DNA of 64,000 nt. It comes from Ancylobacter mangrovi. Its GTDB lineage: Bacteria; Pseudomonadota; Alphaproteobacteria; Rhizobiales; Xanthobacteraceae. The stretch lies in contig NZ_JANTHZ010000001.1 in the NCBI RefSeq assembly GCF_024752355.1, positions 682,001 to 746,000 on the forward strand, read 5' to 3'. A program made the translations under genes and the position numbers. Position 1 is the first letter of the stretch; every line of letters begins with the position of its first letter. The notes under the pieces are model-generated. The model did no database searches. It saw only the letters and a program-made list of their open reading frames with translations, and was not told the origin of the DNA. Shown in pieces: positions 544-55,480 of this stretch.

Positions 544-3500
544 ATGATTGACGTCTCCCGAAGCCCCCGCTCCTCCGAACGATGGCTGCGCGCCGACCTC
601 GCGATCCGGCGCGACGAAGCGCTCGGCGTCGCTTGGGTGCGCGATCCTTCGACCGGCGCCGAGACCATGTTCGAGGGACCGGACTTCTACGTCCTCGACC
701 TGTTCGACGAGACCCGCCGCACCGGCGCAGACAGGAGCCATCGCGAGCGGTTCGGCCGCGACATCGACCTGCTGGCGCGCAAGACGATGCAGCGGCGCCT
801 GCGCAATGCCGGCCTGCTGAACGGCGCCGACGCCGCGCAAGTTGCCCCCCCTGCCGCCGCGACCCGGGCCGCTATTCCGAAGGCCCGCGTTGCGCCGGCG
901 CCGGCCAGCGCGTCGCCCGCCAATGCAACGCCGCCCGCGGCGACCGCGACCCGCCCCAGCATGCGCGTCGCCCCGCGCACGCCGCTGCGCAGCCGCGACG
1001 CCGCGCCCGCACCGGCCGGCACGCGCCCGGCGGACCGCAAGCCCGCACCGCAGGGCCCTGCACCCGCCAGGAATCCCGTGCCTTCGCCGGCAAAGAATGA
1101 GGCTGCCCGGACGCGAACCAGCGCGCGCATCAACCCGCGCCAGCGCCGGCTTGCCGGAGACAGCGCGGCGCCGGTCGCCGGGCCACAGCCAGCACCGCCG
1201 GCTTCTCCTCCTGCGCCACAGGCCAAGCCTGCGCCCGCGCCGGCGATCGACCGCGCCGCGTTGCTCGAAGCGCTGAACGATTTCGAAGAGATCATCCGCC
1301 GTCCCGCCTCGCCCCGGGAGCCGCCCGCTTCTGAGGCTCCGGCACCCGAGGAGGCTCCACCGCAGGACGCCCCGCCGCAGACGCCGGCCGTGTCGCATGA
1401 AGCGATGTTCGAGGCGCTGAACGACTTCGACGAGACCATCCGACGCCCCGACCCGCCGCCGGAACCCTCGGCGGACTCTCTCCCACCCGACGAGCCTTCG
1501 CCGCAGGACGCCCCGCCGCAGGCACTCGCCACCTCGCATGAGGCGATGTTCGAGGCTCTGAACGACTTCGACGAGACCATCCGTCGCCCTGATGCGCCGC
1601 CTTCCGGCGAGGACAGCCCTTGGCAGGCAAGGGACCTCGCCCCATACGACCCGGCGCCCGAACCGGCGATGGAGTCGACTCCGGTCACCGATGAACCTTC
1701 CGGTCCCGAGGCGTCGGGAAGCGAGGCCGGGAGAGCGGGCGCAGCCGACGAGGCCCCCCGGGCGGCCGATCCGCCAGGCCCGCCGGACCCGCCCGGCATC
1801 GACGCGACATCCGCCGACGGTACCGGGCCGGCAATGGATATGGTCGCAACCGCCACTCCTGCGACGGCTTCCCCCTCATCGGCCGGACATGGCGACGCGA
1901 CGCTGGCGGAGGCGCGGCGGGCGGGACCGAACTCTCCGGCCCCGAAGAGCGGGCGCCGGACGCGGCCGGCGACCAGCGCCGAGCGCCTTGCGGGCAAGCA
2001 GGCGGGCCGGGCCGGGCGGCACGAACGCAAGGTCTCGGACGCGCCTGCGCGGCGTACCGCGCCCACCGTCCTGCCGGCGAGCGAGCGCCTCGCCCTGCCG
2101 GCCCCCACCTCTTCCTCCACGCAAAGCCGCGGCAAGGACGATGCCGCCGAACCGGCGTCCCCCCAGGCGGCGATGCGTTCGGTGGTCGAGGAATCGGTCG
2201 CCGCGCCAGCCTTCGATGCCGACCTGTTCCTCGGCGACATGGATGACGAGCTGTTCGGCGGCACGTCGGCGCGCCACGGCGCGAAGCCCGGCGGGCGCGG
2301 CCGCGGTGAGGGCGCGGCCGGCGAAGCCAGGCATGCCGGAGGCGGGGGGCGCGGCTTCGGTGGAGGCGGGTTCGCGGGCGGTGGCGGCTTCGCCGGCCGC
2401 TTCGGCGGCGGCGGCGGGCTTGGCGGTGGCGGCGGCTTCGGAGGCGGCGGCCCCGGCGGCGGCGGCTTCGGAGGCGGTGGAGGCCTTGGAGGCGGCGGCG
2501 GTCTGGGCGGGGCGATGGGTGCCGGCGGCGGGCGCGAGGCGCTGTTCGCGGCGCTCGCCGGCCGCGGGCGCGGCGGCGGCGAGGCCGAGCGCGCGCCGTC
2601 CGACCGGGTGTCGCTGTTCAACCCGAAATATCTCTTCGCCCTGCTGGCCGTGCTGTTCTGGCCGATGCGCTACCTGCACTGGCTGCTGTGGCCGACGGTG
2701 GTGTTCGCCGGCATGGTGGTGTTCCAGAAATGGACGCTGTTCTCGGCCGACCTTCAGGCCATCACCTGGACCTGGTCGACCATCGCCAGCATGCTGGTCA
2801 GCTTCCTGATCGTGAACTCCACCGCCCGCATGACGCAGGGCACGGTGATCCAGAACGCGGGCGGCGAGGTGAAGCAGTTCGGCATCGTGGTCGAGCTCGG
2901 CATCCTGCCGCGCTTCTTCGTCGACAAGTCGGCGATCCCGACGCTCGACCGCAGCGGCCAGCTCTGGGCCTATGGCGCCCCGCTTGCCGCCCGCCTGTGG
3001 ATGTTCTCCGGCGGCACGGTGCTGTGGAGCATGCTGCACGAGAACGGCACCACCTTCTCCGGCTATGCGCTGGTGGTGGCCCAGGCGGCGCTGATGGAAT
3101 TCCTCATCATCGCCTTCCCGCTGATGCCCGCCGACGGCATGAACTGGCTGACCGTCTGGTTCGGCGATCCCAACCTCAAGAAGAAGGCCCTCGCCTCGCT
3201 GCGCAACTGGCTCACCGGCCGGCCGCGCCCGATGCTGGTCAAGCCGGAGGAGGAGACCGCGCTGATCCTGTTCGGCATCGGCGCGGTGCTGTGCTCGCTG
3301 CTGTTCGTGGGCACGCTGCTGACCTATTTCGCCATCGTGCTGGAGGTGGAGGTCGGCGGCGCGGGCATGGGCATCTTCCTGCTGCTCTGCCTCTCCTGCC
3401 TGATCTGGTTCATCGCCATGCTGACCCGCGACCACCGCACGTCGTGGGTGCCGATGCCTGCGGGCGAGGTCGCCGCGCCGGCCGGCAAGCCGGGCCAGGC

Positions 3501-4554
3501 CGCCGCCCCCGCCAAGCCGCGCACCAACGTCGCCGCCTGGGGGCGGGTGTTCTGGGCCATCGTCTGCGTGTTCCTGCTGGCGGTCGCCTTCCTGCCTTAC
3601 GAATACGAGGCGTCCGGCTCCTTCAACATCCTGCCGATCGCCGAGAACCAGGCCAATGCCCGCACCGACGGCGAGATCGTCAAGGTGATGGTGCGCGAGG
3701 GCGACTGGGTGACGGAGGGCGAGGTGCTGGGCAAGCTCTCCTCCTGGGACCAGGAGCACGAGGTGGCGATCACCCGCGCCCGCCTCGACGAGGCGAAGGC
3801 CAAGCTCCAGCAGTTGGTTGAGGGCGCCAAGGCCGAGCAGGTCGAGGTCGCCGAGAAGGAGGTCGCCTCGCAGCGCGCCAGCGTCGCCTTCTCCGAGGCG
3901 GAGATGAAGCGGCAGGCCGAGCTCGAGAAGACCGGCACCGCCTCGCCCGCCGCCTATGAGCGCGCCAAGTCGCGCTACGACAGCGACGTCGCCAAGCTCA
4001 ACGTCGCCATCGCCAGCCTCGACCTCGTGCGCAGCGCCGCCACCCAGAGCGAGATCGACGCCCGCAAGGCCGATGTCGACCGCCTGTCCGCCGAGTTCAA
4101 ATACCGCGAGGATTTGCTGGAGCGCACCGATATCCGGGCGCCGGCCGACGGGCGCGTGGTCACGCCCAATCTCCACCTGCTGGTCGGCAAGTGGCTGAGG
4201 TCGGGCGACGCGCTGCTCGAGACCGAGGACATGCGCACGGTCGATGCCGAGATCGACCTGCCCGAGGCCGACATCTCGCTGATCCAGCCCGGCGACAACG
4301 TACGCATCAAGGCCTGGGGCTACAGCGACACGCCGATCCTCGGCAAGGTCGTCTCCATCGCCCCCGCGGCCTCGAAGCGCAGCTACGGCATGGTGGTGCG
4401 CGTCAAGGCAACCATCCCGAACGGGAATGGCGCGCTGAAATCGGGCATGACAGGCTATGCGAAGGTCGACGGCGCGCGGATGATGACCTGGCAGGCCTTC
4501 CTGCGCTTCATCGTGCGCTTCTTCCAGGTCGAGGTCTGGTCGTGGATACCGTGA
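544..4554 (+). CDS. PqqD-like / inactive M50-like membrane domain / HlyD adaptor fusion protein
   Basis: A 1336-residue inner-membrane protein. Residues 1-95 resemble the PqqD-like N-terminal domain found in M50/HlyD fusions. Residues 95-590 are Pro/Ala-rich and probably disordered, with a motif ALNDF(D/E)E(T/I)IRRP repeated at about 240, 288 and 335. Residues 598-662 are almost pure glycine. A multi-pass domain (about 690-980) follows the M50 peptidase layout: GGEVKQFG (773-780), PRFFVD, and ADG at 863-865 where the family has LDG. Where HExxH is expected the protein reads NSTAR (758-762), so it should not be a zinc protease. The C-terminus (about 1003-1330) is an HlyD membrane-fusion domain with a lipoyl-like part and a coiled coil. 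Such proteins usually act in type I-like export. No ABC transporter or TolC partner lies in the window. The stop overlaps the next start (TGATG), so the two are probably coupled. Confidence 0.8.
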   Translation: MIDVSRSPRSSERWLRADLAIRRDEALGVAWVRDPSTGAETMFEGPDFYVLDLFDETRRTGADRSHRERFGRDIDLLARKTMQRRLRNAGLLNGADAAQVAPPAAATRAAIPKARVAPAPASASPANATPPAATATRPSMRVAPRTPLRSRDAAPAPAGTRPADRKPAPQGPAPARNPVPSPAKNEAARTRTSARINPRQRRLAGDSAAPVAGPQPAPPASPPAPQAKPAPAPAIDRAALLEALNDFEEIIRRPASPREPPASEAPAPEEAPPQDAPPQTPAVSHEAMFEALNDFDETIRRPDPPPEPSADSLPPDEPSPQDAPPQALATSHEAMFEALNDFDETIRRPDAPPSGEDSPWQARDLAPYDPAPEPAMESTPVTDEPSGPEASGSEAGRAGAADEAPRAADPPGPPDPPGIDATSADGTGPAMDMVATATPATASPSSAGHGDATLAEARRAGPNSPAPKSGRRTRPATSAERLAGKQAGRAGRHERKVSDAPARRTAPTVLPASERLALPAPTSSSTQSRGKDDAAEPASPQAAMRSVVEESVAAPAFDADLFLGDMDDELFGGTSARHGAKPGGRGRGEGAAGEARHAGGGGRGFGGGGFAGGGGFAGRFGGGGGLGGGGGFGGGGPGGGGFGGGGGLGGGGGLGGAMGAGGGREALFAALAGRGRGGGEAERAPSDRVSLFNPKYLFALLAVLFWPMRYLHWLLWPTVVFAGMVVFQKWTLFSADLQAITWTWSTIASMLVSFLIVNSTARMTQGTVIQNAGGEVKQFGIVVELGILPRFFVDKSAIPTLDRSGQLWAYGAPLAARLWMFSGGTVLWSMLHENGTTFSGYALVVAQAALMEFLIIAFPLMPADGMNWLTVWFGDPNLKKKALASLRNWLTGRPRPMLVKPEEETALILFGIGAVLCSLLFVGTLLTYFAIVLEVEVGGAGMGIFLLLCLSCLIWFIAMLTRDHRTSWVPMPAGEVAAPAGKPGQAAAPAKPRTNVAAWGRVFWAIVCVFLLAVAFLPYEYEASGSFNILPIAENQANARTDGEIVKVMVREGDWVTEGEVLGKLSSWDQEHEVAITRARLDEAKAKLQQLVEGAKAEQVEVAEKEVASQRASVAFSEAEMKRQAELEKTGTASPAAYERAKSRYDSDVAKLNVAIASLDLVRSAATQSEIDARKADVDRLSAEFKYREDLLERTDIRAPADGRVVTPNLHLLVGKWLRSGDALLETEDMRTVDAEIDLPEADISLIQPGDNVRIKAWGYSDTPILGKVVSIAPAASKRSYGMVVRVKATIPNGNGALKSGMTGYAKVDGARMMTWQAFLRFIVRFFQVEVWSWIP
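1258..1590 (+). repeat. Three in-frame repeats encoding an ALNDFDETIRRP motif
   Basis: Three near-copies begin at 1258, 1402 and 1543, spaced 144 and 141 bases, inside the disordered part of the first gene. Copies two and three encode the same 15-residue core (AMFEALNDFDETIRR); copy one is more diverged. The acidic/Pro-rich linkers between them are also related. The regular spacing and conserved aromatic/acidic core look like repeated docking motifs. That role is inferred. Confidence 0.75.
2335..2535 (+). repeat. Glycine-rich low-complexity tract (GGX repeats)
   Basis: About 65 codons encode almost only Gly with spaced Phe, Leu, Ala and Arg, directly before the membrane domain of the first gene. 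The DNA is a run of GGC/GGT/GGA codons and is likely to vary in length between strains. Confidence 0.75.
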
Positions 4555-5348
4555 TGAGCGAGACCATCGCCGCCACCGCGCAGCAACGGACGCAGCCCGT
4601 GCAGGACAGTGCCCAGCCCATCTTCGTCCTCGGCGCCGCCGCCGGCGGGCGCCATGCCCTGATCGGCGCGATGCTCGGCCAGCACCCGGCCTGCTTCGGC
4701 ATGCCCGAGCTCAACCTGCTGGTTGGCGACAATCTGGAAGAGGTCGCGTTCCGGCTGAACCAGCCGCACAACGCCCAGTTCCATGGCCTGCTGCGCGCCG
4801 CCGCCTACCTGCTGAGCGGCGAGCAGAGCATGGACGCGGTGGCGATGGCCCGCCGCTGGATGATCCGGCGCATGTCGCTGCCGACCTGGCGCATCTTCGA
4901 GGAGCTGCGGGTGAAGGTGGCGCCGCGGCGCATGGTCGACCCCAGCCGCGCCTATTCGCTCAAGCTGGACGCGCTGAAGGTGATCCAGCGGTCCTATCCC
5001 GGCGCCAGCGTGGTCCGGCTGGTCGCGCCGGCGGCGGAGCGTGGCGGGCGCGAGTCCGCCGGCGGGCAGAAGCGCCAGGGCGCCCTCGCCCGCTTCTTCG
5101 AGGCGCTGCCGGACGGCCAGCTCGCCGAGCTCTCCGTAGAAGGTTTCGAGCAGGCGCCCCGCACCACGCTGCGCAAGCTGTGCGCCGCGCTGGCGCTGCC
5201 CTGCGACGACGCCGCGCTCGACGCGATGATGCAACCGCAGAACTCGCCCTTCGCCGGGCTCGGGCCTGCCGGGGCCAATCTCGGCAACGACCCGGCGTTC
5301 CTCGCCAATCCGGCCTTCCGCTCGCCGCTGGAGCGGCGGTCCGCCTAG
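4554..5348 (+). CDS. Sulfotransferase-family-like protein, degenerate PAPS sites
   Basis: 264 residues, translationally coupled to the gene before it by a TGATG overlap. The N-terminal part (PIFVLGAAAGG, then HPACFGMPE) follows the outline of bacterial sulfotransferases, in which a 5'-phosphosulfate loop of type GxPRSGTT is followed by a glutamate about 20 residues later. Here the PRSGTT core reads AAAGGRHA, losing the Arg/Thr positions, and the downstream RDP segment reads VRLVAP. The C-terminal segment with YPGASVV and a final Leu/Pro-rich helix still fits the family. It may bind a substrate without transferring sulfate, or be a divergent enzyme. Its neighbours suggest a role in the same export or modification locus as the HlyD fusion. 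Confidence 0.6.
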   Translation: MSETIAATAQQRTQPVQDSAQPIFVLGAAAGGRHALIGAMLGQHPACFGMPELNLLVGDNLEEVAFRLNQPHNAQFHGLLRAAAYLLSGEQSMDAVAMARRWMIRRMSLPTWRIFEELRVKVAPRRMVDPSRAYSLKLDALKVIQRSYPGASVVRLVAPAAERGGRESAGGQKRQGALARFFEALPDGQLAELSVEGFEQAPRTTLRKLCAALALPCDDAALDAMMQPQNSPFAGLGPAGANLGNDPAFLANPAFRSPLERRSA

Positions 5349-5419
5349 CGATGCAACGGCGCAGGGTTATGGGCGTGCCAGCCTTCTGCGCTCCAGCCCT
5401 GCGACTTGCCTTTTGCGCG

Positions 5420-5872
5420 TCAGTTCCCGGCCTTCTGCCGGCTGCGCAGCAGGGCGGCCTCCAGCATGTCGATCTCCTCGACCAGCACCTTGGAGAGTGC
5501 GGTGAGCATGCCGACCCGGTGGCGTAGATCCGCCATGTGGCTCTCGATCTCCTCCGGCGTGCTGGAACTGTCCAGCGTCGCCGTGCTGAGGTCCATCTCC
5601 AGCGAGCTGTGCAGGAAGTCCTGCAGATGCATCATCTGCTGCATCTTCTCGCTGTTGGCGTTGTTGACCGGGATCACGTCCTCGATCACCGCGGGCGCGG
5701 GGGGCGGCATCGGCGCGCGCCGGTGCCGGGCCGCCGGGGCGGGCACCGCCTCGGAGAGGCCGGCCGCCGGGATGCGGGGCCGGGAGGGGCGGGCGTCGTG
5801 CGTGCCGGCCGATGTCGGGGCAGCGGGCGTCGCGGCCCCGCTCGTCCCGTTCGCCTCGCGTGGCCCGTTCAT
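5420..5872 (-). CDS. Unknown protein with Pro/Ala-rich N-terminus and C-terminal coiled coil
   Basis: 150 residues on the minus strand, pointing against its neighbours. I chose the ATG at 5872 because a GAGG lies eight bases upstream; a GTG nine bases earlier is the alternative. The first half is Pro/Ala/Arg-rich and probably disordered. Residues about 72-148 are predicted helical, with many Met, Leu and Glu and heptad-like spacing (for example LRHRVGMLTALSKVLVEEID). I recognise no family and see no signal peptide or membrane segment. A scaffold or adaptor for the surrounding cluster is possible, but that is a guess. Confidence 0.55.
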   Translation of the reverse strand: MNGPREANGTSGAATPAAPTSAGTHDARPSRPRIPAAGLSEAVPAPAARHRRAPMPPPAPAVIEDVIPVNNANSEKMQQMMHLQDFLHSSLEMDLSTATLDSSSTPEEIESHMADLRHRVGMLTALSKVLVEEIDMLEAALLRSRQKAGN

Positions 5873-6038
5873 GCAAGTCACCTCGTATCTGGCGGCCGCG
5901 GCATCGATCTTGCCTGCGAAATCCGCGTCGCCGTAACGCGCCGATTCCGTCGTGAAACGCCTCGACGCATCATGCTAGCTTAAGGGCAGGGGCCGCGCAC
6001 GCACAGCCTTTCCATCCATTTGAGGCAATGATAGGCTC

Positions 6039-6050
6039 TCGCAGCTGCGA
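6039..6050. promoter_or_regulatory. Perfect 12-bp palindrome, candidate operator
   Basis: TCGCAGCTGCGA is a perfect palindrome in the 270-base divergent spacer between the coiled-coil gene (5872, minus) and the phosphatase-family gene (6143, plus), 93 bases before the latter start. Its position fits a regulator site for one or both genes. No cognate regulator is evident. Confidence 0.35.
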
Positions 6051-6142
6051 AAAGAAGACGTTTCTAGTTGCCGTTTGATGTAACGGGAACAGTTCGAATT
6101 ACCGTGTATCGCGCCGGGGGCGGCGGTGGAGGGTGCGATTCG

Positions 6143-7720
6143 ATGAAAGTCTTGATGATCGGGCTCGACGGAGCCACCTTTACGTTGCTCGACCCCCTGA
6201 TTCAACAGGGAATCATGCCCTTCCTGGGGTCAATTCTTGAGAATGGCGTGCGGGCCAATCTCATGTCGACGCGCAATCCCCTGACGCCGCCGGCCTGGAC
6301 CTCGATGGTGTCCGGCCGCCGTCCCGAGGCGCACGGCATCTACGACTTCCTGCGCCCGATCACGATGCGCGACGGGGGCGTGTTCCTCAAGATCAACGAT
6401 TTCCGCGACAACCACTGCGAGACGCTGTGGTCGATCGTCAATCGCCGCGGCAAGCGGGCCACCAGCCTGAACTTCTACGGCATGTCGCCGGCGCCAGCGA
6501 TCGACGGCTACGTCATCTCCGGCTTCGTGCCCTGGAGGCACCTGCGGCACGGCATCCACCCGAAGAGCCTGTTCGACACGGTCCGCTCCATGGACAAGTT
6601 CGACTATCGCGACCTCGGCATGGATATCGGCGAGGAGAAGAAGTGCGTGCAGGGCCTGCACGAGGGCGAGCACGTCGAGTGGATCGAGCTGCAGGACCGG
6701 CGCGATTCCGCCTGGGCCGAGATGACGAGCTACATCCTGTCCACCGACCCGACCGACCTCACCGCTGTCGTGCTCGACGGGCCGGACAAGGTGCAGCACC
6801 TGTTCTGGCGCTTCGTCGACCCGGAGCTGGTGAAGAAGGACGGCGACGCCTGGTACCAGCAGATCCGCGAGCTGTGCCTCGGCTTCTACCGCAAGCTCGA
6901 CGAGAACATCCGCAAGATGGTCGAGGCGGCGGGGCCGGACACCGACGTCATCCTTACCTCCGACCACGGCTTCGGCCCGACCACCGAGATCTTCTACGTG
7001 AACGAGTGGCTGTCGCGGAACGGCTACCTGACCTGGTCCAACACGGCGGCCGACGACGCGCTCGGCCAGCTCACCGCCGAGAAGATCCGCGACCATCTCG
7101 GCATGATCCAGTGGCAGGCCACCACCGCCTTCTGCCCCACCCCCTCCAGCAACGCGATCTACATCAAGAAGGATCTCGGCTCCGGCTCGGGCGTGAAGGA
7201 GGAGGACTATCTCGACTTCGCCATGAAGCTGCAGCGCGAGCTGCTCGAGATCCGCGACCCGGTCAACGGCGAGAAGATCGTGCTCGGCGCCGATCTCAAC
7301 AAGCTGCGCGGCACCAGCTATGTCGAGCCCTGCCCCGACATCACGCTGCGCCTGCGCGACGGCGGCTTCGTCTCGATCCTCAAGGCGCGCGAGATCATCG
7401 CCCAGCGCGAGGAAGCCGACGGCACCCACCGCCCGGCCGGCATCTTCGTCGGCTACGGGCCGAGCTTCCGCAAGGGCGCGCGGGTCGAGGACTTCAGCCT
7501 GCTCGACATCGCCCCGCTGATCCTCACCCTGATGGGCCTGCCGGTGCCCAGCGACCTCGACGGCCAGGTGCCGCAGGCCGCCCTCGCCGATACCCGCGAG
7601 GCGGTGATCGGCGGCGCGACGCAGGCGGCCGGCACCAGCGAGGACGACCGCGAGGAGCCGAGCGAAGAGGAGCGCGAGGCCCTGATGAAGCAGCTCAAGA
7701 TCCTCGGCTACATGGACTGA
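6143..7720 (+). CDS. Alkaline phosphatase superfamily protein (type I phosphodiesterase/nucleotide pyrophosphatase-like)
   Basis: 525 residues. The ATG at 6143 has a GGTGGAGGG ribosome binding site nine bases upstream and starts directly at the conserved MKVLMIGLDG strand, so the longer TTG-initiated frame is unlikely. The metal site of the superfamily looks complete: Asp in GLDGA, the nucleophile region TPPAWTSMVSG, DGPDKVQH with Asp and His, TSDHGFGP with Asp and His, and a final His before RPAGIFVGYGP. The family hydrolyses phosphate mono- or diesters, or transfers phospho-groups. No signal peptide is seen, so a cytoplasmic location is likely. It heads a run of seven plus-strand genes to 13675. 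Substrate unknown. Confidence 0.85.
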   Translation: MKVLMIGLDGATFTLLDPLIQQGIMPFLGSILENGVRANLMSTRNPLTPPAWTSMVSGRRPEAHGIYDFLRPITMRDGGVFLKINDFRDNHCETLWSIVNRRGKRATSLNFYGMSPAPAIDGYVISGFVPWRHLRHGIHPKSLFDTVRSMDKFDYRDLGMDIGEEKKCVQGLHEGEHVEWIELQDRRDSAWAEMTSYILSTDPTDLTAVVLDGPDKVQHLFWRFVDPELVKKDGDAWYQQIRELCLGFYRKLDENIRKMVEAAGPDTDVILTSDHGFGPTTEIFYVNEWLSRNGYLTWSNTAADDALGQLTAEKIRDHLGMIQWQATTAFCPTPSSNAIYIKKDLGSGSGVKEEDYLDFAMKLQRELLEIRDPVNGEKIVLGADLNKLRGTSYVEPCPDITLRLRDGGFVSILKAREIIAQREEADGTHRPAGIFVGYGPSFRKGARVEDFSLLDIAPLILTLMGLPVPSDLDGQVPQAALADTREAVIGGATQAAGTSEDDREEPSEEEREALMKQLKILGYMD

Positions 7721-7786
7721 CCGCGTTGCCGGGCGTGCGGGGCCGCCCGGCTCCGCAGGCCGGCGCCGGCCTTTGGAACCCCTTCC

Positions 7787-8746
7787 ATGCCGATGCTCGC
7801 CCTCAACGACCTGGAGGTCCATTACCAGCGCCTCGGCGCGGGCGAGGACGTCATCCTGATCCATGGTCTCGGTGCCAATCTCGCCTTCTGGTATCTCGGC
7901 GGCGGGCGCCACCTCGCCGCGAGCCGGCACCTGCTGCTCTACGACCTGCGCGGCCATGGCCGCTCCTCCATGCCGCCCAGCAGCTACCGGCTGCCGAGCA
8001 TGGTGGCGGACCTCAGCGCGCTGATGAGCCATCTCGGCCTCGCCCAGGCGCACATCGTCGGCCACAGCTTCGGCGGGCGCGTCGCGCTGGCCTTCGCCGG
8101 GCTGCACCCGGACAAGGTGCGCAGCCTCGTGGTCGCCGACACGCAGATCCGCGCCTTCCAGCCGCCCATGCGCCTGCGCGACTGGCCGCACTGGAAGAGC
8201 TGGAAGGAGGAGCTGATGGCACTCGGCCTCGAGGAGCCGCCGAGCGACGATTCCATCATCGACTTCCGCCTGCTGTCCGAGCTCAACAAATATGGCGGCG
8301 ACCTCGCCGGCACCGGCACGGCGCGCACGCAGCGGCGCATCTCGCTGCGCTCGCGCGACATGGGCAATCGCGGCCGCGAGAACTGGCAGACCATGCTCGC
8401 CAGCACCACCGCCGGCGCCGAGTTCGAGGATGAGACACCGCTGGAGACCGACTTCTTCTCCCGCGTCACCGCCCCCACCCTGCTGCTGTTCGGCGCGCTG
8501 TCGCACTGCCTGCCGACCGCCTACGCCCTGCTCGACCACCTGCCGCGCTCGCGGCTGATCACGGTGCCGCGCGCCGGGCATTTCTTCCCGGTGGTCGAGC
8601 CGGTGCGCTTCGCCCGCGCCGTCGACCGCTTCCTCACCATCAACGAGAGGCGCGGCGAGCGCATCGCCCCGCCATCGCTCGAAAACCGGCGCGGCCGGCT
8701 GCGCGCCATTCTGCGCGGCGACGATCGCCCGGGCCGGAGCCACTGA
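7787..8746 (+). CDS. Alpha/beta hydrolase
   Basis: 319 residues with the usual fold order: oxyanion-hole HGLGANLAF near residue 26, nucleophile elbow GHSFGGR near residue 90, and a C-terminal AGHFFPVVEP histidine. Where this family usually has the acid residue (G..D after strand 6) the sequence reads FGALSHCLP, so the catalytic Asp is absent or moved. The next gene starts one base after the stop, so the pair is probably one transcript. In a locus with an acyl carrier protein and ketoreductase-like SDRs, a thioesterase or ester hydrolase role is reasonable but unproven. Confidence 0.8.
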   Translation: MPMLALNDLEVHYQRLGAGEDVILIHGLGANLAFWYLGGGRHLAASRHLLLYDLRGHGRSSMPPSSYRLPSMVADLSALMSHLGLAQAHIVGHSFGGRVALAFAGLHPDKVRSLVVADTQIRAFQPPMRLRDWPHWKSWKEELMALGLEEPPSDDSIIDFRLLSELNKYGGDLAGTGTARTQRRISLRSRDMGNRGRENWQTMLASTTAGAEFEDETPLETDFFSRVTAPTLLLFGALSHCLPTAYALLDHLPRSRLITVPRAGHFFPVVEPVRFARAVDRFLTINERRGERIAPPSLENRRGRLRAILRGDDRPGRSH

Positions 8747-8747
8747 G

Positions 8748-9515
8748 TTGCGGACCGGTCATGTCAGCCTCATCACCGGCGGCAGCAGCGGCATCGGCCG
8801 CGGCATCGCCGAGGAGCTCGCACGGCGGGGCGGCTCGGTTGCGATCGTCGGGCGCGACGCCGGGCGCCTCGAGGAGACGCTGGGCGCGCTGCGCGCCCTC
8901 GGCCCCGGCCGCCACGAGGCGCTCGCGCTCGATGTCGGCGACCCGGAAGCCTTCGGCGCGCTCGCGACGCTGATCGCCGGTTACGGCCGCGTCGACCTCA
9001 TGCTCGCCGCGGCGGCACTGGGAGAGGGCCCGGCCGGCGGCGAACGCCTGCCGAAGGCGACGCGCGACCTGCCGCTCTCCACCTTCCAGCGCGTGATCGA
9101 CATCAACCTGCACGGCGTGTTCCTGGCGGTGAAGGCGGTGCTGCCGGCGATGATCGAGCAGGGCGACGGCGACATCGCCGCGGTCAGCTCTTCCACCACC
9201 CCGCACGGGCTTGGCGGGCGGCCGATGGCGCCGGCCTATTGCAGCTCGAAATTCGCAATCGCCGCGCTGTTCGCCACGCTGGCGGAAGAGGTGGCCGAGC
9301 ACGGCATCCGCGTGCACACGCTGTTCCCCGGGCCGGTCGAGACGCCGCTCATCGCCGACACCATGCTGCACGCCCCCTATGGCGGGCGCATCACGGCCGA
9401 CAATTTCGCCACCGCCGTGCTCGGGGCGATCGAACTCAACCGCTCGGTAGTGTTTGCCGATCCCATTATCCTGCCGGTGCCGGTGGAGCGCGGGGCTCCT
9501 CCGGCCGCAAGCTGA
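8748..9515 (+). CDS. Short-chain dehydrogenase/reductase (first of pair)
   Basis: 255 residues. It starts at TTG 8748: the Rossmann motif LITGGSSGIGRG begins only six residues later, so a later start would break the fold, and GGAG lies eight bases upstream. The active-site Ser (VSSSTTPHG) and YCSSK (YxxxK) are present, as is the NLHGVF segment before the active site. SDRs reduce carbonyls or oxidise alcohols with NAD(P)H. This one is only about 20 bases from a second SDR, and the pair may act on successive steps. Substrate not predictable from sequence. Confidence 0.85.
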   Translation: MRTGHVSLITGGSSGIGRGIAEELARRGGSVAIVGRDAGRLEETLGALRALGPGRHEALALDVGDPEAFGALATLIAGYGRVDLMLAAAALGEGPAGGERLPKATRDLPLSTFQRVIDINLHGVFLAVKAVLPAMIEQGDGDIAAVSSSTTPHGLGGRPMAPAYCSSKFAIAALFATLAEEVAEHGIRVHTLFPGPVETPLIADTMLHAPYGGRITADNFATAVLGAIELNRSVVFADPIILPVPVERGAPPAAS

Positions 9516-9534
9516 CGGTGCTTTGGAGAGTGCG

Positions 9535-10311
9535 ATGACCGACCCGCTGAACGGCAAGACCGTGATCGTCACCGGCGCGACGGGCGGCATCGGCGGCGCC
9601 TGCGTGCGCGCGCTGTTCGCGCGCGGCGCGAACGTGACCTTGGTCGACCGCAGCCCGGAGCGCCTCGCCAGCCTCGCCGCCGAGGGCGGGGAGAGATCGC
9701 TGCCGCTGGCGCTGGACGTCGCGAGCGAGGAGGACATGGCGCGCATGGCGGCCGAGACGGTGGAACGCTTCGGCGCCGTCGACGTGCTCATCTGCGCCGC
9801 CGGCATCCTGCGCACCGGGGGCCAGCCGCGCATGGTGGCGGACACCAGCTTCGAGGAGTGGAAGACCATCCTCTCGGTGAACCTCACCGGCACCTTCCTC
9901 GCCAACCGCGCGGTGCTGGGGCAGATGACGAAGCAGGGCCGGGGCGACATCGTCAACGTGTCCTCCACCTCCGGCCGGCAGGGGCGCCCGTTCGACGCGC
10001 CCTACTGCGCCTCCAAGTTCGGCGTGGTCGGCTTTTCCGAATCCCTCGCCGAAGAGGTCGGGCGCATCGGCATCCGGGTGCAGACCCTGCTGCCGGACGC
10101 GGTCGACACGCCGCTGTGGGACCAGAGCGGCACCGCCGCCATCCGTCCGCGCGAGTTGCTGACGCCTGAGCGCGTCGCCGAGGTGATCCTCTATCTGATC
10201 ACCCTGCCGCGCGACACCTACCTGCTCAACCCCACGCTCTATCCCTCGCGCCAGCGGGCCCGGCGCAAGCCGGCCTCCCCCGCCGCCGCCAATCGTGAAA
10301 CGGTGAGCTGA
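9535..10311 (+). CDS. Short-chain dehydrogenase/reductase (second of pair)
   Basis: 258 residues from ATG 9535, preceded by a GGAGAG site. It carries TGATGGIGG for cofactor binding, the catalytic Ser in VNVSSTSGR and YCASK. It resembles FabG-like 3-ketoacyl reductases in layout, which would suit a locus with an acyl carrier protein, but the family is too broad for a firm call. Its stop overlaps the next start (TGATG), indicating coupled translation with the propeller-like gene. Confidence 0.87.
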   Translation: MTDPLNGKTVIVTGATGGIGGACVRALFARGANVTLVDRSPERLASLAAEGGERSLPLALDVASEEDMARMAAETVERFGAVDVLICAAGILRTGGQPRMVADTSFEEWKTILSVNLTGTFLANRAVLGQMTKQGRGDIVNVSSTSGRQGRPFDAPYCASKFGVVGFSESLAEEVGRIGIRVQTLLPDAVDTPLWDQSGTAAIRPRELLTPERVAEVILYLITLPRDTYLLNPTLYPSRQRARRKPASPAAANRETVS

Positions 10312-11813
10312 TGCTGGCCCCCGAATTCCCGCACGGACCCGCGCCGCTGCCGGGCCTGTCGCGCGCCGACTTCGCCTGCGTGGGCAAGGGCGGCCTCGGC
10401 GACGGGCACAACAACTACGCCCACTCCATGGAGTGGTTCAACGGCAAGCTCTATCTCGGCACCACGCGCTCGAACCTGTGCATGCTGCGCATGCAGTCCT
10501 CCTACTCCGACATTCCCTTCACCACCTGGCCGGTGGAATGCCCGGAGACGATGGACGAGCTCTACAAGCTCGACCGCCGCGCGCAGATCTGGTGCTACGA
10601 CCCGGCGACGCAGGCGTGGGAGATGGTGTTCCGCGCGCCGATGGTGGACGGCATCGGCGGCGCCAAGGTGCCGCGCGAGATCGGCTACCGCTCGATGCAG
10701 ATCTTCCAGGGCGCGCACGACCCCGCCCCCGCGCTCTATGTCTCGGCCTGGGCGCCGGGCCGGGCGCCGGGCGGGCTCATCATGCGCAGCTTCGACGGGC
10801 GCCATTTCGAGCAGGTCTCGCGCTACGGCATATTGGAGAACGCGCCGATCTCCACCACGCGCTGCCTCACCGCCTTCAAGGGCCGCATGTTCTTCTCGCC
10901 CACCGCGAAGCGCGGCACGGACGGGGCGCAGCAGAACACGACCGGCCTGCCGGTGGTGTTCGAATCCGCCGACCCCGCCTCCGACCTCTGGATCGAGGCG
11001 AGCGAGTTCGGCTTCGGCGACGCCGGCAATCTCGGCATCTTCACCCTGTGCGCGGAAGGCGACCGGCTCTATGCCGGCACCTTCAACCTCGACGGCTTCC
11101 AGGTCTGGGCCAGCGACTGCGAGGGCAAGCCGCCCTATCGCTGGACCCGGCTGATCGACAAGGGCGGCCATCGCGGCGCGCTCAACCAGGCGGTGGCCTC
11201 GATGACCGGCTTCAAAGGCGCGGTCTATGTCGGCTCCGGCATCCAGGGCGGAGGCTATGACCGCGTGAACGGCGTCGGACCGGCGGGATCGGAGCTGATC
11301 CGCATCAACCCGGACGATAGCTGGGACCTCATCGTCGGCGAGCCGCGCGATACGCCGGAGGGACGGCGCGAACCGCTCAGCCTGATGCGCTCGGGCTTCG
11401 GCAACCTGTTCAACGGCTATTTCTGGACGCTCACCGCGCATCAGGACTGGCTGTATCTGGGCACCTATGACTGGACCGTCACGCTGCGCTGGACCGAGGG
11501 CGACGCGGCGCCGGCGCGCGTGCAGCGCCTGTTCCAGATAATGACCCGCGAGCAACTCATCGCCCATGAGGGCGGCGCGGACCTGTGGCGCTCCAGCGAC
11601 GGCGACAACTGGCTGCCGGTCACCCGCAAGGGCTTCGACAACCCGTATAATTTCGGCGTCCGCAACCTTGTGTCGTCGGAGGCGGGGCTGTTCGTGGGCA
11701 TCGCCAACGTGTTCGGCCCCCGCGTCGCGGTGCGGCGCGGCGAGCGCTGGGAATATGAGGACAACCCGGACGGCGGGCTGGAGGTCTGGCTGGGCAGCAA
11801 GGTCGGGACCTGA
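10311..11813 (+). CDS. Propeller-like protein of unknown function
   Basis: 500 residues with no recognised catalytic family. Several segments repeat a propeller-blade pattern, an aromatic or hydrophobic residue then LGT/AGT/VGS and a turn: LYLGTTRSN, LYAGTFNLDG, VYVGSGIQ, LYLGTYDW and LFVGIANVFG. The N-terminal third holds a conserved-looking GDGHNNYAHSMEWFNG stretch. No signal peptide is visible. Overlaps of the TGATG type join it to both neighbours, so it is translated in a tight block with an SDR and an esterase. It could be a binding subunit or an enzyme such as a lactonase or lyase; both are guesses. Confidence 0.75.
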   Translation: MLAPEFPHGPAPLPGLSRADFACVGKGGLGDGHNNYAHSMEWFNGKLYLGTTRSNLCMLRMQSSYSDIPFTTWPVECPETMDELYKLDRRAQIWCYDPATQAWEMVFRAPMVDGIGGAKVPREIGYRSMQIFQGAHDPAPALYVSAWAPGRAPGGLIMRSFDGRHFEQVSRYGILENAPISTTRCLTAFKGRMFFSPTAKRGTDGAQQNTTGLPVVFESADPASDLWIEASEFGFGDAGNLGIFTLCAEGDRLYAGTFNLDGFQVWASDCEGKPPYRWTRLIDKGGHRGALNQAVASMTGFKGAVYVGSGIQGGGYDRVNGVGPAGSELIRINPDDSWDLIVGEPRDTPEGRREPLSLMRSGFGNLFNGYFWTLTAHQDWLYLGTYDWTVTLRWTEGDAAPARVQRLFQIMTREQLIAHEGGADLWRSSDGDNWLPVTRKGFDNPYNFGVRNLVSSEAGLFVGIANVFGPRVAVRRGERWEYEDNPDGGLEVWLGSKVGT

Positions 11814-12778
11814 TGCGCGGCCACGTCATCCTCGTCCTGCTGCTGATCCTCGTCCTGTTCCTGTGGCTGCGCCGGCGCCAGCGCCTCGGCCGACCGATCC
11901 TCCTGCCCCGCTTCGGGCGCCGGCCGCACACGCTCGCCGTCCTCGTCGGAGGCACGAGGCGCGTTGCCCAGATCTACCGCCCGCGGGCCAGCGCCGGCGC
12001 GCCGCTGCTGCTGTGCTTCCATGGCGGGCTCGGCCGGATCGACCGCTTCGCGCGCGGCAGCGGGCTGGTGGACCGGGGGCTGGAGCGCGGCTGCGTGGTC
12101 GCCTTCCCCTCCGCGCCGACCGGCTGGGTCGACGGGAGGCCCGAGCTCGGGGAAAGCGCCGAGGACCTCGATTTCGTCGAGGCGCTGGTCGACAGGCTCG
12201 CCGCCGAGATGCACATCGACCGGGCGCGGGTGTTCGCCATCGGCGTCTCGAACGGGGGGATGTTCGTCGAGCGCCTCGCGGCCGAGCGCCCGCATCTGCT
12301 GGCGGGCGCGGCCGCCGTCATCGCCTCGGTGCCGGTGCGCATGGCGAGGCCGGTCGCCGACGGCCCGCCCCTGCCCTTCGTCCTCGTCTGCGACCGCAAC
12401 GACCAGATCATGCCCTGGCATGGCGGGCAGATCCTGCGCGGGCAGAACCGGGGCCATGGCGGCGAGGTGATCCCGGTGGAGGACGCGCTGGCGCTGTGGG
12501 TCGAGCGCAACCGCGCGGTGCCCGCCGGCGCACCGCTGCGCATTCCCGGGCCCGACGGCCATTTCGCCGAGATGGTGGATTTCAGCCCCGGCCCGGGCGG
12601 CGCGCCGCTGCGCTTCGTCGCCGTCAGCGGCGAGGGCCACCGCTGGCCGCGCTGGCCGTCCGGGCGCGGCGCACGCGGCTTCGACGCCGGCGAGGTCGCG
12701 CTCGACTTTCTCGCCCAAGCCGCCGCGGACGCGCCCGGCACGGGCGGCCTCGACGATCCGCTATCCGCCAGAGCCTAG
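11813..12778 (+). CDS. Membrane-anchored esterase of the PHB depolymerase/LpqC type
   Basis: 321 residues. An N-terminal hydrophobic helix (about residues 3-19, followed by RRRQR) should anchor it in the inner membrane. The alpha/beta hydrolase domain has FHGGLGRIDR, the nucleophile elbow GVSNGGMF, CDRNDQIMPWHGG with the likely catalytic Asp, and GEGHRWP with the His. This combination is typical of poly(3-hydroxyalkanoate) depolymerase and feruloyl-esterase-like LpqC proteins, often secreted. It is coupled to the propeller-like gene by a TGATG overlap. The substrate could be the product of this locus rather than PHB. Confidence 0.8.
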   Translation: MRGHVILVLLLILVLFLWLRRRQRLGRPILLPRFGRRPHTLAVLVGGTRRVAQIYRPRASAGAPLLLCFHGGLGRIDRFARGSGLVDRGLERGCVVAFPSAPTGWVDGRPELGESAEDLDFVEALVDRLAAEMHIDRARVFAIGVSNGGMFVERLAAERPHLLAGAAAVIASVPVRMARPVADGPPLPFVLVCDRNDQIMPWHGGQILRGQNRGHGGEVIPVEDALALWVERNRAVPAGAPLRIPGPDGHFAEMVDFSPGPGGAPLRFVAVSGEGHRWPRWPSGRGARGFDAGEVALDFLAQAAADAPGTGGLDDPLSARA

Positions 12779-12793
12779 CCAGGGGGCAGTCTC

Positions 12794-13675
12794 ATGAGCA
12801 CGTCCATGGTCGACACGACCTACGAATCCTACGCCAACCTGCCCGAATACGTGTCGGTCAATCAGGTCCTCATCGACCAGATCGACCTTCAGGGCGTGCG
12901 CCGCGTGGCCGATCTCGCCTGCGGCACCGGCCTGCTCTCCGGGCTGCTGCTCGACCGGAAGCCGGGCCTCGCCATCTGCGGCGTCGACCTCGATCCCGAG
13001 CAGACCGGCATCGCCGCGCGCACCTTCGCCGCGCGCGGGCGCCTGCTGCCCGATCTCGACGCCTTTCGCGCCGAGGGGGCGCAGGGCGCCTGCTTCCTGA
13101 CCCGGAGCGCGGACGAGCTGCCGCTCGCGGACGGCGAGGTCGATTTGGTGATGATCGGCAACGCCATCCACCTGATGCCCGACAAGGACAAGTTCCTCGC
13201 CGAAGTGGCCCGCATCCTGCGGCCCGGCGGCGCGTTCATCTTCAACTCGCTGTTCTATGTCGGCACCTTCCCGGAAGGCAGCGAGCCGGTCTACACCGAG
13301 TGGCTGAAGCAGTCCGCCATCATTCTCGACGAGAAGAACCGCGCCCGCATCGCGGCCGGCGAGCCGCCCATCCCGCGCAAGCGGGGCGGCGGCGGGCGGG
13401 CCTTCGCCAAGGGCTGGCTCTCGCCCGAGGGCTGGGCCGAGAAGGTGGAGGCGGCGGGCATGAGCGTCACCAGCGTCGGACGCAGCGAATCCGTCATCTC
13501 GCGCAGCGGGCTCCAGCTCATCGGGGCCTATGGCGGGCTCGCCGAGGTGCTGATGAGCGGCTATCCGGTCGACATCGCCGCCGCCTGCCTGTTCGAGGGC
13601 GTCGACCGCGCCTTCGACGAGATGGGCATCGAATCGGTACCAAGGTACTGGATGGAAATGAAGGCGCGGCGCTGA
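12794..13675 (+). CDS. Class I SAM-dependent methyltransferase
   Basis: 293 residues starting 15 bases after the esterase gene, with GGGGGCAG ahead of the ATG. SAM motif I is VADLACGTGLLSG near residue 40, with the acidic residue of motif II in GVDLDPEQ. A motif IV-like GEVDLVMIGNAIHLMP and LRPGGAFIFN complete the fold. The order resembles UbiE/type 11 methyltransferases acting on small molecules. It is the last gene of the compact run that starts at 6143. A hairpin follows the stop. Confidence 0.85.
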   Translation: MSTSMVDTTYESYANLPEYVSVNQVLIDQIDLQGVRRVADLACGTGLLSGLLLDRKPGLAICGVDLDPEQTGIAARTFAARGRLLPDLDAFRAEGAQGACFLTRSADELPLADGEVDLVMIGNAIHLMPDKDKFLAEVARILRPGGAFIFNSLFYVGTFPEGSEPVYTEWLKQSAIILDEKNRARIAAGEPPIPRKRGGGGRAFAKGWLSPEGWAEKVEAAGMSVTSVGRSESVISRSGLQLIGAYGGLAEVLMSGYPVDIAAACLFEGVDRAFDEMGIESVPRYWMEMKARR

Positions 13676-14124
13676 CCCCGCCGCCGGCAACGCCCGCCAC
13701 CCGTCCGGCGGCAGGCGCCTTCCTTTCAGTCAACGCGCTCCCACCGGCAAGCAGCGGGGGCGCTCGAGGACTTCGTGACACTTTTTCCGGGCTACGGCCA
13801 AAGAAAAGCCCAACGCTGAAACCGCGCCGACGTAGCGTGGCACCATTGGCGCGCTTTGTTTTCATCCTGCCGCGAAATTCTTCGAAGGCAGGGTGGCCGG
13901 CCGTTGCAGAGCCGGCTTGTCGAATACCGATCGGTACCTCTTTAGACGAATTCGCCGGCCCGGAAACTCTGCCGCAGCAGCTCCCGATTGCGCCGGTGGG
14001 ACGAAATGCTAGAGTTTCCTCTGCGCCACCGGAACGCCCCGTGACGCCTGCGTTCGGACCGGAAGAGGGCGGAGCCTGCCCGATATTCGCTCTGCCCCGG
14101 CCGGTCTGACATCGGAGCATTCGC
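13676..14124. other. 449-base spacer with a terminator-like hairpin
   Basis: A GCCGCCGG/CCGGCGGC hairpin (13680-13712) just after the methyltransferase stop, followed by a pyrimidine-rich CCTTCCTTTC, may end that transcript. The rest holds no convincing gene. It is less GC-rich than its neighbours in places (about 13780-13960) and presumably carries the promoter for the secreted protein at 14125. Confidence 0.4.
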
Positions 14125-14469
14125 ATGCGAGCGACGTTCCCGGCGTTCCTGCTCTCGGTCGTGCTGGCCATCACCTCGTCGCCCGGCGCGCACGCGCAGT
14201 CGGCGCCGCGCATCGAACTGCGTGCCGGCGGGCTCAATCACTGTTGCGACCTCTACGTCCCGCCCGGCCGCGGCGGGTTCACCTCGCCGGACGTCATCCG
14301 GCGCGTCAGCGGCTATCAGAGCCTACCGTGGCGCGAGGGGTTTATGGACGGCATCATGATCGGCACCGGGAATTTCGGCGCCGAGCAACCGGTGTGGAAC
14401 GCGGGCGGCGGCTGCGCCTCAGCCATGCACAACAACGCGAACGAGCGCGCCCATGTGCACGCCGCGTGA
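14125..14469 (+). CDS. Small secreted protein, possibly a truncated gene
   Basis: 114 residues with a clear Sec signal peptide (basic start, hydrophobic LLSVVLAITSS, cleavage after AHA about residue 24). The mature part has a CC pair (NHCCDLYV), a further Cys (GGGCAS) and a Gly/Asn-rich end. I recognise no family. The frame stops at 14469, while coding-like sequence resumes in another frame (about 14590-14765), so the gene may be the front half of a frameshifted longer protein. It lies between the methyltransferase and acyl carrier protein genes. Confidence 0.5.
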   Translation: MRATFPAFLLSVVLAITSSPGAHAQSAPRIELRAGGLNHCCDLYVPPGRGGFTSPDVIRRVSGYQSLPWREGFMDGIMIGTGNFGAEQPVWNAGGGCASAMHNNANERAHVHAA

Positions 14470-14924
14470 CGCTGCCGTTGGACTGGGCTGTGCACTCGCG
14501 GTTCGGCGGGGAGCGCGCATCGAATACGGCGCTCGCCGCTACCGCCGCGGCGTGGGAGTTTCCGAGGATTTTCAGGAAGCAGGCCGAGGGCTGGAAATGG
14601 CGGGCATCGTGACGGGGACCGACACCGGCCGCGACCCCACATACGACATCCAGCTCATGGCGGATGGCGGGACGCTGGTGGTCGCCTATCTCAACGCCGG
14701 CGACCGGGTGATCTCCGCCGAATACGACTACGACACCGGCGCCAACAGCTGGGCCCGAGCCCGCGCCAGCGCGGCGGATGTCACGCGGGATCGGAATGAA
14801 AGTTGCTTGCGCCAACCGAATGCTTCCGCAACCGTCGCCCGGGCACCGAGGCGGTCGGCGCGTATTGGGACTTGCCGCAACTGGCAGCGGGTGCCGGCGC
14901 GGCCTGATGGGGGGGTAATGGATC
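14470..14924 (+). pseudogene. Possible decayed 3' part of the secreted-protein gene
   Basis: About 455 bases with no clean gene. One frame, different from that of the gene ending at 14469, has a stretch with protein-like composition at about 14636-14760 (for example DIQLMADGGTLVVAYLNAG followed by an acidic Tyr-rich segment) but no good start, and it becomes random-looking after about 14770. This could be the original C-terminus after a frameshift, or chance. The final 20 bases supply the G-rich ribosome binding site of the acyl carrier protein gene. Confidence 0.25.
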
Positions 14925-15218
14925 ATGAGTCTTGCGACGCGTAGCGATGTCGAGGGGGCCGTCATAAATGTCGCCAACGACATGGTCGCCGGCTGGGATA
15001 TCGAATTGCCGAACGGCATCAATGCCGAGACCCGGCTGATGGAGGACCTGTCCTTCGAGTCGATCGATGTCGTGCAGTTCGCGGTCGCCATCGAGCAGGC
15101 GGTCGACCGCAAGGGGCTGCCGTTCGAGAAGCTGTTCATGAAGGACGGCGAATATGTCGACGACGTTGAGCTGCGCGAGGTGAGCGAGTTCCTGTGCAGG
15201 GAGTTGGGCGTGCACTGA
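14925..15218 (+). CDS. Acyl carrier protein
   Basis: 97 residues. The motif DLSFESIDVVQF (41-52) matches the phosphopantetheine attachment site of carrier proteins, with Ser46 as the expected modified residue, then the helix-rich second half ending SEFLCRELGVH. Length and acidity fit a stand-alone ACP. A run of G residues upstream of the ATG is the ribosome binding site. It is not next to fatty-acid synthase genes, so it is probably a dedicated carrier for a specialised acyl group. With two SDRs, two hydrolases and a methyltransferase on the same strand, it may belong to their pathway. No ketosynthase or acyl ligase is present in the window. Confidence 0.85.
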   Translation: MSLATRSDVEGAVINVANDMVAGWDIELPNGINAETRLMEDLSFESIDVVQFAVAIEQAVDRKGLPFEKLFMKDGEYVDDVELREVSEFLCRELGVH

Positions 15219-15390
15219 GCTGGGCGCGCACTGAACCGCTCGACATGCCGGCCGGATGAGGGCGCCCCCGGGGCGCCATCACGCGACCATAATCGATGCC
15301 CTGAATGACGCTGCGAGACCTTGCTGGCGGGCGCGGGAACCGGGCTCGCCTCTTCACGTTTCCTTTGCGTCACGACCGTTGGAGACCGCG

Positions 15391-15651
15391 ATGAGGCATT
15401 CAGTCATGATCGGTGCGCTGCTGGGCGGCCTTGTTCTGGCCGGCTCCGCGTCGGCGCAGGACGCGATGTCGCCGGAGATGAAGCAGCTCTTCGTGCAGAA
15501 CTGCCGTCAGGACCTCGCCACCTACTGCTCGGGCGTGCAACCCGGCAACGGCGCGGTCAAGGGCTGCATCCGCGACAATTTCCGCAGCTTTTCCCAGCCC
15601 TGCAAATCGGCGCTGCGGCAGATGATGGCGCAGCGCTCGCAGCAGCAATAG
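15391..15651 (+). CDS. Small secreted cysteine-rich-repeat protein
   Basis: 86 residues from an ATG with TTGGAG seven bases upstream. The signal peptide (MRHSVMIGALLGGLVLAGSASA) is followed by a mature domain with four Cys in the pattern seen in GLG1-type cysteine-rich repeats: NCRQDLATYCSG, then KGCIRDNFR and QPCKSAL. These repeats are common in small periplasmic proteins of Rhizobiales; function unknown. A 10-bp hairpin (15674-15699) follows the stop. Confidence 0.75.
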   Translation: MRHSVMIGALLGGLVLAGSASAQDAMSPEMKQLFVQNCRQDLATYCSGVQPGNGAVKGCIRDNFRSFSQPCKSALRQMMAQRSQQQ

Positions 15652-52556: not shown

Positions 52557-52665
52557 CGCCAGCGTGATCGGGCGATTCAGCCCTCGACAATCCCCGAAAC
52601 TGCGCTCATGCTCCTAGGTGGAATGCCGGACGGAAGCACCGTCTGAATGACCGTCTACCTTTTCC

Positions 52666-52697
52666 AGACCCGAAGCCCCGCTTCGGGTCTTTTTTTG
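52666..52697 (+). terminator. Rho-independent terminator
   Basis: A perfect 11-bp stem AGACCCGAAGC/GCTTCGGGTCT with a three-base loop is followed by seven more T residues. It is the strongest terminator in the window. It lies about 110 bases after the methyltransferase stop and 90 bases before the MfnE-like gene; the sequence just before it can form another hairpin (52629-52643). Confidence 0.93.
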
Positions 52698-55475: not shown

Positions 55476-55480
55476 CGGCC

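Follow-up and report, generated by a model that had tools for sequence, protein, structure and literature searches.

Gene content and extent of the locus

The window analysed here is a stretch of 64,000 nucleotides of Ancylobacter mangrovi (G000:C12:682001-746000, part of a 4.9 Mb genome), and our subject is the gene set at its positions 544-15218, for which an initial annotation had proposed a single system for making, tailoring and exporting an acyl-linked product. All the genes it named were found there, mostly on one strand and with that of a coiled-coil protein reversed, but they form only the right-hand third of a locus of ~44 kb (C12:652,871-697,218), which reaches ~29 kb beyond the window's left edge, ends at window position 15218 and also contains two polyketide synthase (PKS) genes, further sulfotransferases and sulfate-activation genes. 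Comparison across genomes supports the view that the locus is one horizontally scattered biosynthesis-and-export system whose core gene order is conserved across phyla. The genes inside the window are the following (position, strand, product; evidence):

544..4554, +, HlyD adaptor fused to an M50-like (site-2-protease-like) membrane domain, with a long low-complexity N-terminus; HlyD_3 1.3e-17, HlyD_D23
4554..5348, +, pseudo-sulfotransferase STd, without the loop that binds 3'-phosphoadenosine-5'-phosphosulfate (PAPS); Sulfotransfer_3 1.5e-8, alignment
5420..5881, -, small coiled-coil protein; no Pfam family, homologs in the sister genomes G012 and G003
6143..7720, +, type I phosphodiesterase / nucleotide pyrophosphatase family (PDE), PPAWTS motif; PF01663 3.2e-37
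7787..8746, +, alpha/beta hydrolase, candidate chain-release thioesterase; family match 2.7e-30, putative triad S94/D118/H265
8748..9515, +, short-chain dehydrogenase/reductase (SDR) 1; adh_short 7.2e-43
9535..10311, +, SDR 2; adh_short 9.7e-53
10311..11813, +, beta-propeller, marker gene of the locus; confident AlphaFold model, three paralogs left of the window
11813..12778, +, alpha/beta hydrolase estB, G-x-S-x-G present; Peptidase_S9 1.7e-4, under cut-off
12794..13675, +, S-adenosylmethionine (SAM) methyltransferase; 2.5e-16, kept in G012 and absent from the G003 stretch
14925..15218, +, stand-alone acyl carrier protein (ACP); Pfam PP-binding 0.026 and NCBIfam 7.1e-5, both under cut-off, Ser in LSFESID

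Outside the window, the genes for a tetratricopeptide repeat (TPR) protein, a 'sulfatase', a repeat protein, pks1 and pks2 lie to the left on the minus strand and point away from the HlyD gene. A second, polyhydroxybutyrate (PHB)-esterase-like esterase gene, estA, is likewise found upstream of the window:

L003:18654-19877, -, TPR protein
L003:17802-18635, -, alkaline-phosphatase-superfamily 'sulfatase'
L003:17017-17793, -, Gly/Lys-rich repeat protein
L003:8596-16917, -, pks1, 2773 aa
L003:3799-8574, -, pks2, 1591 aa
L005:16540 to L003:3785, +, further left: propeller A, sulfotransferases a and b, propeller B, sulfotransferase c, propeller C
L005:10871-15600, -, far-left end of the locus: cysNC, cysD, cysQ and an esterase

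The individual gene calls of the initial annotation needed some adjustment. The coupling of genes by 1-base overlaps is real, 'many' being generous for the three TGATG junctions at 4554, 10311 and 11813. The sulfotransferase-like protein carries its family domain but is degenerate (see below), and the ACP has the expected Ser while its recognition by profiles is weak; this ACP is kept in G012, absent from the G003 stretch, and located between pks2 and the PDE in many relatives.

Distribution and conserved gene order

A scan of genome contigs with the propeller alignment returned 77 loci, with hosts as far apart as Cyanobacteria and anammox Planctomycetes, from which two of the same genus as the window (L025, L088) were left out for gene counts; the 75-locus core counts are lower bounds, as many contigs end early. 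Gene calls in the relatives were home-made, and many relatives are metagenome-assembled genomes (MAGs), in which binning errors are possible. Record titles among the 77 loci comprised Frigidibacter, Roseivivax, Rubrivivax, Pseudomonas, Neptuniibacter, Nitrosomonas, Nevskia/Solimonas, Fischerella, Westiellopsis, Desulfobulbaceae, Brocadia, Scalindua, Verrucomicrobia, Myxococcota, Acidobacteria, Caldilineae, a distant Methanolinea MAG and others. The controls were 384 Alphaproteobacteria besides the own genome, a set not phylum-matched to positives that span many phyla, and only the best 4 (propeller), 6 (sulfotransferase) and 2 (pks2) candidates were scored in each control genome, whereas nearly all were scored in the positives.

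The recurrent order was pks1-pks2-ACP-PDE-hydrolase-propeller-HlyD. Within the 75 loci, core genes were frequent (PKS 48, ACP 40, PDE 48, hydrolase 52, HlyD/M50 48, sulfotransferase 45), PHB-esterase-like genes (25), SDRs (15) and cysQ (3) were less so, and eight flanking control genes were encountered 0, 0, 3, 0, 1, 2, 0 and 7 times, the last of them being an HlyD-family gene. Among 61 related genomes (own included), the propeller was present in three, all of them in the window's genus (3/30), where pks2 was present in the same three genomes; it was found in none of the 384 other Alphaproteobacteria. The genes also kept company where they were not adjacent: no PKS was seen nearby in 27 loci, and a search of 25 of these genomes (all but those of L031 and L089) located a pks2 ortholog elsewhere in 23 at 1e-60 and in 21 at 1e-200, versus 0/384 control genomes at 1e-200. 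A sulfotransferase was not seen close by in 30 loci; 22 of these genomes were searched and 13 had a strong match (better than 1e-100), while control genomes had none at 1e-60 (0/384). Instead of occurring independently in relatives, without shared presence or order, the shared genes keep their order in the sisters and the core genes in distant bacteria, as the single make-tailor-export system of the initial annotation had implied.

Shared genes follow the same order in the sister genomes G012 and G003, except that estA has moved beside STd in G003. G012 is without propeller A and the secreted open reading frame (ORF) discussed below, while in the G003 stretch only one sulfotransferase and one propeller are present on the left, and the methyltransferase, the ACP, the right flank and both repeat proteins are missing. 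In the more distant Rubrivivax DSM 1709 and Pseudomonas R-28-1W-6, the locus starts with cysNC/cysD and finishes with a propeller or HlyD gene.

Some genes have a much narrower range. The coiled-coil protein (5420-5881) was recovered in 0/75 other loci by tblastn; a coil protein of similar size, its relation unproven, occurs in nine other loci, often adjoining a sulfotransferase. A secreted ORF (14125-14469) overlaps a second ORF in another frame, the pair spanning 14125-14944; neither had a match in the G012 or G003 stretches, and in G012 only ~370 bases separate the methyltransferase and the ACP. Contrary to the initial annotation, the secreted protein is probably not part of the system, and may represent a decaying or recently arrived gene. 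As a separate observation, a TauD-like dioxygenase (family assigned by eye) was noticed in six loci (L031, L032, L087, L089, L097, L101), five of them cyanobacterial by title.

Synthase, sulfotransferases and export genes

The domain order of pks1 is FabK/PfaD-like enoylreductase (ER), ketosynthase (KS), acyltransferase (AT), ACP, ketoreductase (KR) and dehydratase (DH), and that of pks2 comprises KS, AT, DH and a phosphopantetheinyl transferase (PPTase). The PfaA subfamily profile TIGR02813 is passed by pks1 (1023.9 bits vs a cut-off of 1010.1) and not by pks2 (497 bits), while the ER region of pks1 (aa 327-615) matches NCBIfam FabK at 5.4e-26, under the profile cut-off, with no Pfam match there. 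Motifs were present for the KS Cys/His, the AT Ser, the ACP Ser and the pks1 DH His, whereas the KR Tyr of pks1 was missed by the pattern search and seen by eye only. The PPTase motif VSVSH has the hShxH form given for Types M-T of the secondary lipid synthases (PMC3098273, available text), a weak pointer as the companion x(G/D)xP pattern also matches by chance. Between them, pks1 and pks2 hold the at least one KS, ACP and KR that characterise a Pfa-like secondary lipid synthase; tandem ACPs, usual for such synthases and not required, are absent, with one GIDSI-type motif each in pks1, Rubrivivax and Pseudomonas. The two-protein architecture is repeated in Rubrivivax and Pseudomonas (2766+1595 and 2725+1548 aa).

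The loop that contacts the 5'-phosphosulfate of PAPS is a hallmark of PAPS sulfotransferases. It is kept in 8/10 aligned sulfotransferase rows, STa, STb and STc among them, and lost in the window's STd and in the Frigidibacter (L026) sulfotransferase; judged from this alignment, STd is a degenerate sulfotransferase paralog. Compared with the PDB, the family profile matched the CurM sulfotransferase (2e-33) and that of the olefin synthase OLS (4e-32), the next entry following at 3e-8, and by this comparison the cluster sulfotransferases belong to the CurM/OLS family.

Beta-propellers adjoin the sulfotransferases left of the window, and we therefore read them as scaffolds or specificity partners of these enzymes, which is inference only. 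The AlphaFold model of the window's propeller (pLDDT 92.1, pTM 0.93, from 50 sequences) resembled generic kelch/WD and other propellers, with TMq <=0.45 among the 50 matches listed, so that no function could be drawn from the fold. A PDB sequence relative was not found at 0.01, and no Pfam match exceeded its cut-off, the best being Kelch_6 in propeller B (3.3e-4, 21.0 vs 25.3 bits).

In the hydrolase at 7787-8746, S94, D118, H265 and R195 are invariant or near-invariant in 20 aligned sequences, and a catalytic triad is plausible on these grounds. Its assignment as a CurM-type thioesterase gained no support from the PDB: no CurM or polyketide synthase entry stood among the best 60 of 284 and of 340 matches, which were generic. 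True sulfatases carry the formylglycine motif C/S-x-P/A-x-R; the upstream 'sulfatase' reads WTAPSH, with Thr at the formylglycine-precursor position, and was rejected as such an enzyme.

Of the inactive-M50/HlyD fusion proposed in the initial annotation, the adaptor half is the firmer one: the HlyD barrel-sandwich/hairpin domain was confirmed by Pfam and Foldseek. The M50 part had no match in the Pfam scan and only an NCBIfam daptide M50-protease match at aa 689-962 (2.4e-10, 40.1 bits vs a cut-off of 300). The HExxH zinc motif was found in 0/46 sequences of the aligned block (own plus 45/49 called relatives), and since its position is replaced in all 46, loss of M50 catalysis looks like a family trait. 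In the AF2 model of the fusion (pLDDT 84.9, pTM 0.49), a helical part, without a fold match among the matches listed, precedes a C-terminal MacA/EmrA-like adaptor (MacA/EmrA matches in Foldseek). The partner of this adaptor that was seen in relatives is an outer membrane factor: two such families occur in the fetched stretches, in 8/77 and 9/77 loci (17/77 in total), one member of each being PF02321, and the Rubrivivax locus has one outer-membrane-factor ORF, recognised by eye.

Predicted pathway and its alternatives

The closest described class are the secondary lipid (Pfa-like) synthases of Shulse and Allen 2011 (PMC3098273), sorted in the available text into Types A-T, 14 of them uncharacterised. 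The likeness to this class lies in the PfaA-type KS-AT-ACP-KR, the PfaD-like ER, the PPTase and the patchy distribution, and the difference, as far as the available text goes, in the ER fused N-terminally to the PfaA-like protein, the single ACP and the set of sulfotransferase, propeller and export genes; the paper's text contains none of the terms 'sulfotransferase', 'HlyD' and 'Rubrivivax'. Its Type O, reported there for Dinoroseobacter, Parvularcula and Gloeobacter with an uncharacterised product, is a possible candidate for the locus, and a MAG titled Parvularculaceae has both a propeller locus and a PKS. The swf clusters of sponge symbionts (PMC3908369) likewise have a mono-modular PKS/fatty acid synthase (FAS) adjoining a sulfotransferase, their function being unknown and an alkyl sulfate suspected, but they differ by a KS-AT-DH-ER-KR-ACP order, a sulfotransferase fused to a thioester reductase and a radical SAM protein, and the available portions of that paper mention no propeller, phosphodiesterase or HlyD. 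Hybrid clusters of PKS, nonribosomal peptide synthetase (NRPS) and polyunsaturated fatty acid (PUFA) synthase (PMC13291983, 2026) are similar, by the available text, in recruiting PUFA-synthase-like enzymes to specialised lipids, and differ in being NRPS/PKS hybrids; their main text contains neither 'sulf' nor 'propeller' nor 'HlyD'. Searches of an open-access library found no description of a PUFA-type synthase together with sulfotransferase, propeller and HlyD, which does not imply absence from print. To that extent the gene set may be called undescribed, as in the initial annotation, but its synthase class was catalogued in 2011.

We lean, if slightly, towards a secondary-lipid synthase with sulfotransferases that act on its ACP-bound chain, the product being exported by the HlyD/pseudo-M50 protein. 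The synthase would build a long, partly reduced acyl chain, the beta-hydroxy group of which would be sulfonated on the ACP from PAPS; the neighbouring CysD/CysNC could supply PAPS, and CysQ could remove the by-product 3'-phosphoadenosine-5'-phosphate (PAP). The alpha/beta hydrolase would free the chain, the phosphodiesterase-family enzymes, SDRs and methyltransferase would modify it further, and export of the amphiphile would fall to the HlyD/pseudo-M50 protein, probably together with an outer membrane factor. In this reading we take the sulfate to be kept in the product, a sulfated secondary lipid, a point to which we give somewhat less than even chances. We infer that PAPS-dependent sulfonation is the distinctive chemistry of the locus.

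Several observations speak against this reading. The sulfatase-like (15), TPR (7) and methyltransferase (4) genes are not core in the 75 loci; 2/25 of the searched genomes had no PKS match at 1e-60; and 9/22 had no strong sulfotransferase (seven none at 1e-15, two a weak one), among them a Desulfobulbaceae MAG whose locus is otherwise typical. Within the synthase, the pattern for the DH catalytic His gave no match in pks2, and pks1 has a single ACP motif. The extension to the left suggested in the initial annotation in search of a transporter or ketosynthase yielded ketosynthases in pks1 and pks2, but no inner-membrane pump was identified, and the own cluster is without an outer membrane factor, three such genes being located elsewhere in the genome. 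Further points are that cysNC is single-copy in 30/30 genomes of the genus, cluster-less ones included, and near the propeller in only 2/75 loci, and that the sulfotransferases of CurM and OLS create a leaving group, not a retained sulfate (PMC3908369, PMC3903477, available text).

In these enzymes, according to the same portions of the two papers, the beta-hydroxyl of an ACP-bound chain is sulfonated, followed by thioesterase release, decarboxylation and desulfation. The locus might act likewise, with the finished ACP-bound chain beta-sulfonated, released by the hydrolase and turned by decarboxylation and sulfate loss into a terminal alkene or polyene, as in OLS/curacin. The sulfotransferases, whose E-values against CurM and OLS are ~24 orders of magnitude better than that of the following PDB entry, agree with this route, as do the stand-alone ACP, the KR able to supply a beta-hydroxyl, and the alpha/beta hydrolase with its conserved residues. 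We nevertheless consider it rather unlikely, given a hydrolase that is not specially related to the CurM or another decarboxylating thioesterase among the PDB matches listed, and no fatty acyl-AMP ligase (AMP-binding) domain in the 29 window-genome proteins scanned (cysD not among them). The PKS setting is shared with CurM/OLS; unlike there, the enzymes are here separate proteins around a PUFA-type iterative synthase, and an exporter is present, which would suit an amphiphile better than a hydrocarbon.

Sulfotransferases, phosphodiesterase-family enzymes and HlyD adaptors are also found in polymer export, and the synthase could then make a lipid anchor or carrier, with the sulfotransferases modifying an anchored polysaccharide or protein, as in rhizobial capsule loci. 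This is improbable, as the 29 Pfam-scanned proteins include no glycosyltransferase, flippase or polymerase and the sulfotransferases are closer to acyl-ACP ones, carbohydrate and protein ones matching at 3e-8 or weaker.

A case for a mere gathering of unrelated neighbours in the genus comes from the PAPS genes, which are resident in the genus and have the cluster beside them. These genes border the cluster in the window genome as well as in Rubrivivax, in Pseudomonas and in two Burkholderiales MAGs, and this linkage outside the genus is suggestive of a tie to the cluster. Other species of the genus, however, have cysD-cysNC without the cluster, with cysQ also in 3/4 examined, and G020 (L128, G020:C1:4040001-4060000) shows LysR-YeiH-cysNC-cysD arranged as they are on the left flank in the window genome, an apparent empty site as judged from its left side. 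With cysNC in all 30 genomes and cysD-cysNC present without the cluster, the latter is best seen as a guest beside a resident sulfate-activation operon, and the status of cysNC/cysD/cysQ as cluster-specific genes is weakened by the same data and by cluster-less G020. For the core genes, chance is ruled out by synteny and controls (order and co-occurrence across phyla, 0/384 in controls), which makes chance neighbourhood a highly improbable account of the locus; it may hold for the repeat proteins, the methyltransferase and the secreted ORF.

For the sulfonated-lipid reading, the gain would be a concrete chemical hypothesis for an orphan lipid synthase class, namely PAPS-dependent sulfonation of an ACP-bound chain. 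In its widest form, a cross-phylum pathway in which a PUFA-type iterative synthase hands over to free-standing CurM-type sulfotransferases with propeller partners, and a dead-protease/adaptor takes the pump's place, the proposal is bolder and we hold it to be unlikely; if true, both the lipid class and the layout of the exporter would be new. The pseudo-protease/HlyD fusion itself may act as exporter. The locus spans records titled phototrophs, nitrifiers, anammox MAGs and cyanobacteria and includes cultured Rubrivivax gelatinosus, and the propeller family, which has no PDB sequence relative and no Pfam match above the cut-off, can serve as a marker for mining.

Some further features were noticed in and around the locus. 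Two strongly basic repeat proteins (L003:17017-17793 and L005:15810-16460), in which units ILQRLxAK / RLRRLLQARR recur, lie among the cluster genes; both are found in G012, the first at 59% and the second at 48% over just 64 residues, and neither has a counterpart in the 75 other loci or in the stretch from G003. Small secreted Cys-rich-repeat proteins, alike by eye, flank the cluster region (window 15256-15651 and L005:160-570), the right one with a PF00839 match and kept in G012; the pair are possible traces of duplication at the flanks. A plasmid as carrier was rejected, the propeller having no match in 72,556 plasmid records. Finally, genes at window positions 52600-56800 resemble tetrahydromethanopterin-linked one-carbon (C1) metabolism (by eye, no family search), which suggests a methylotrophic host.

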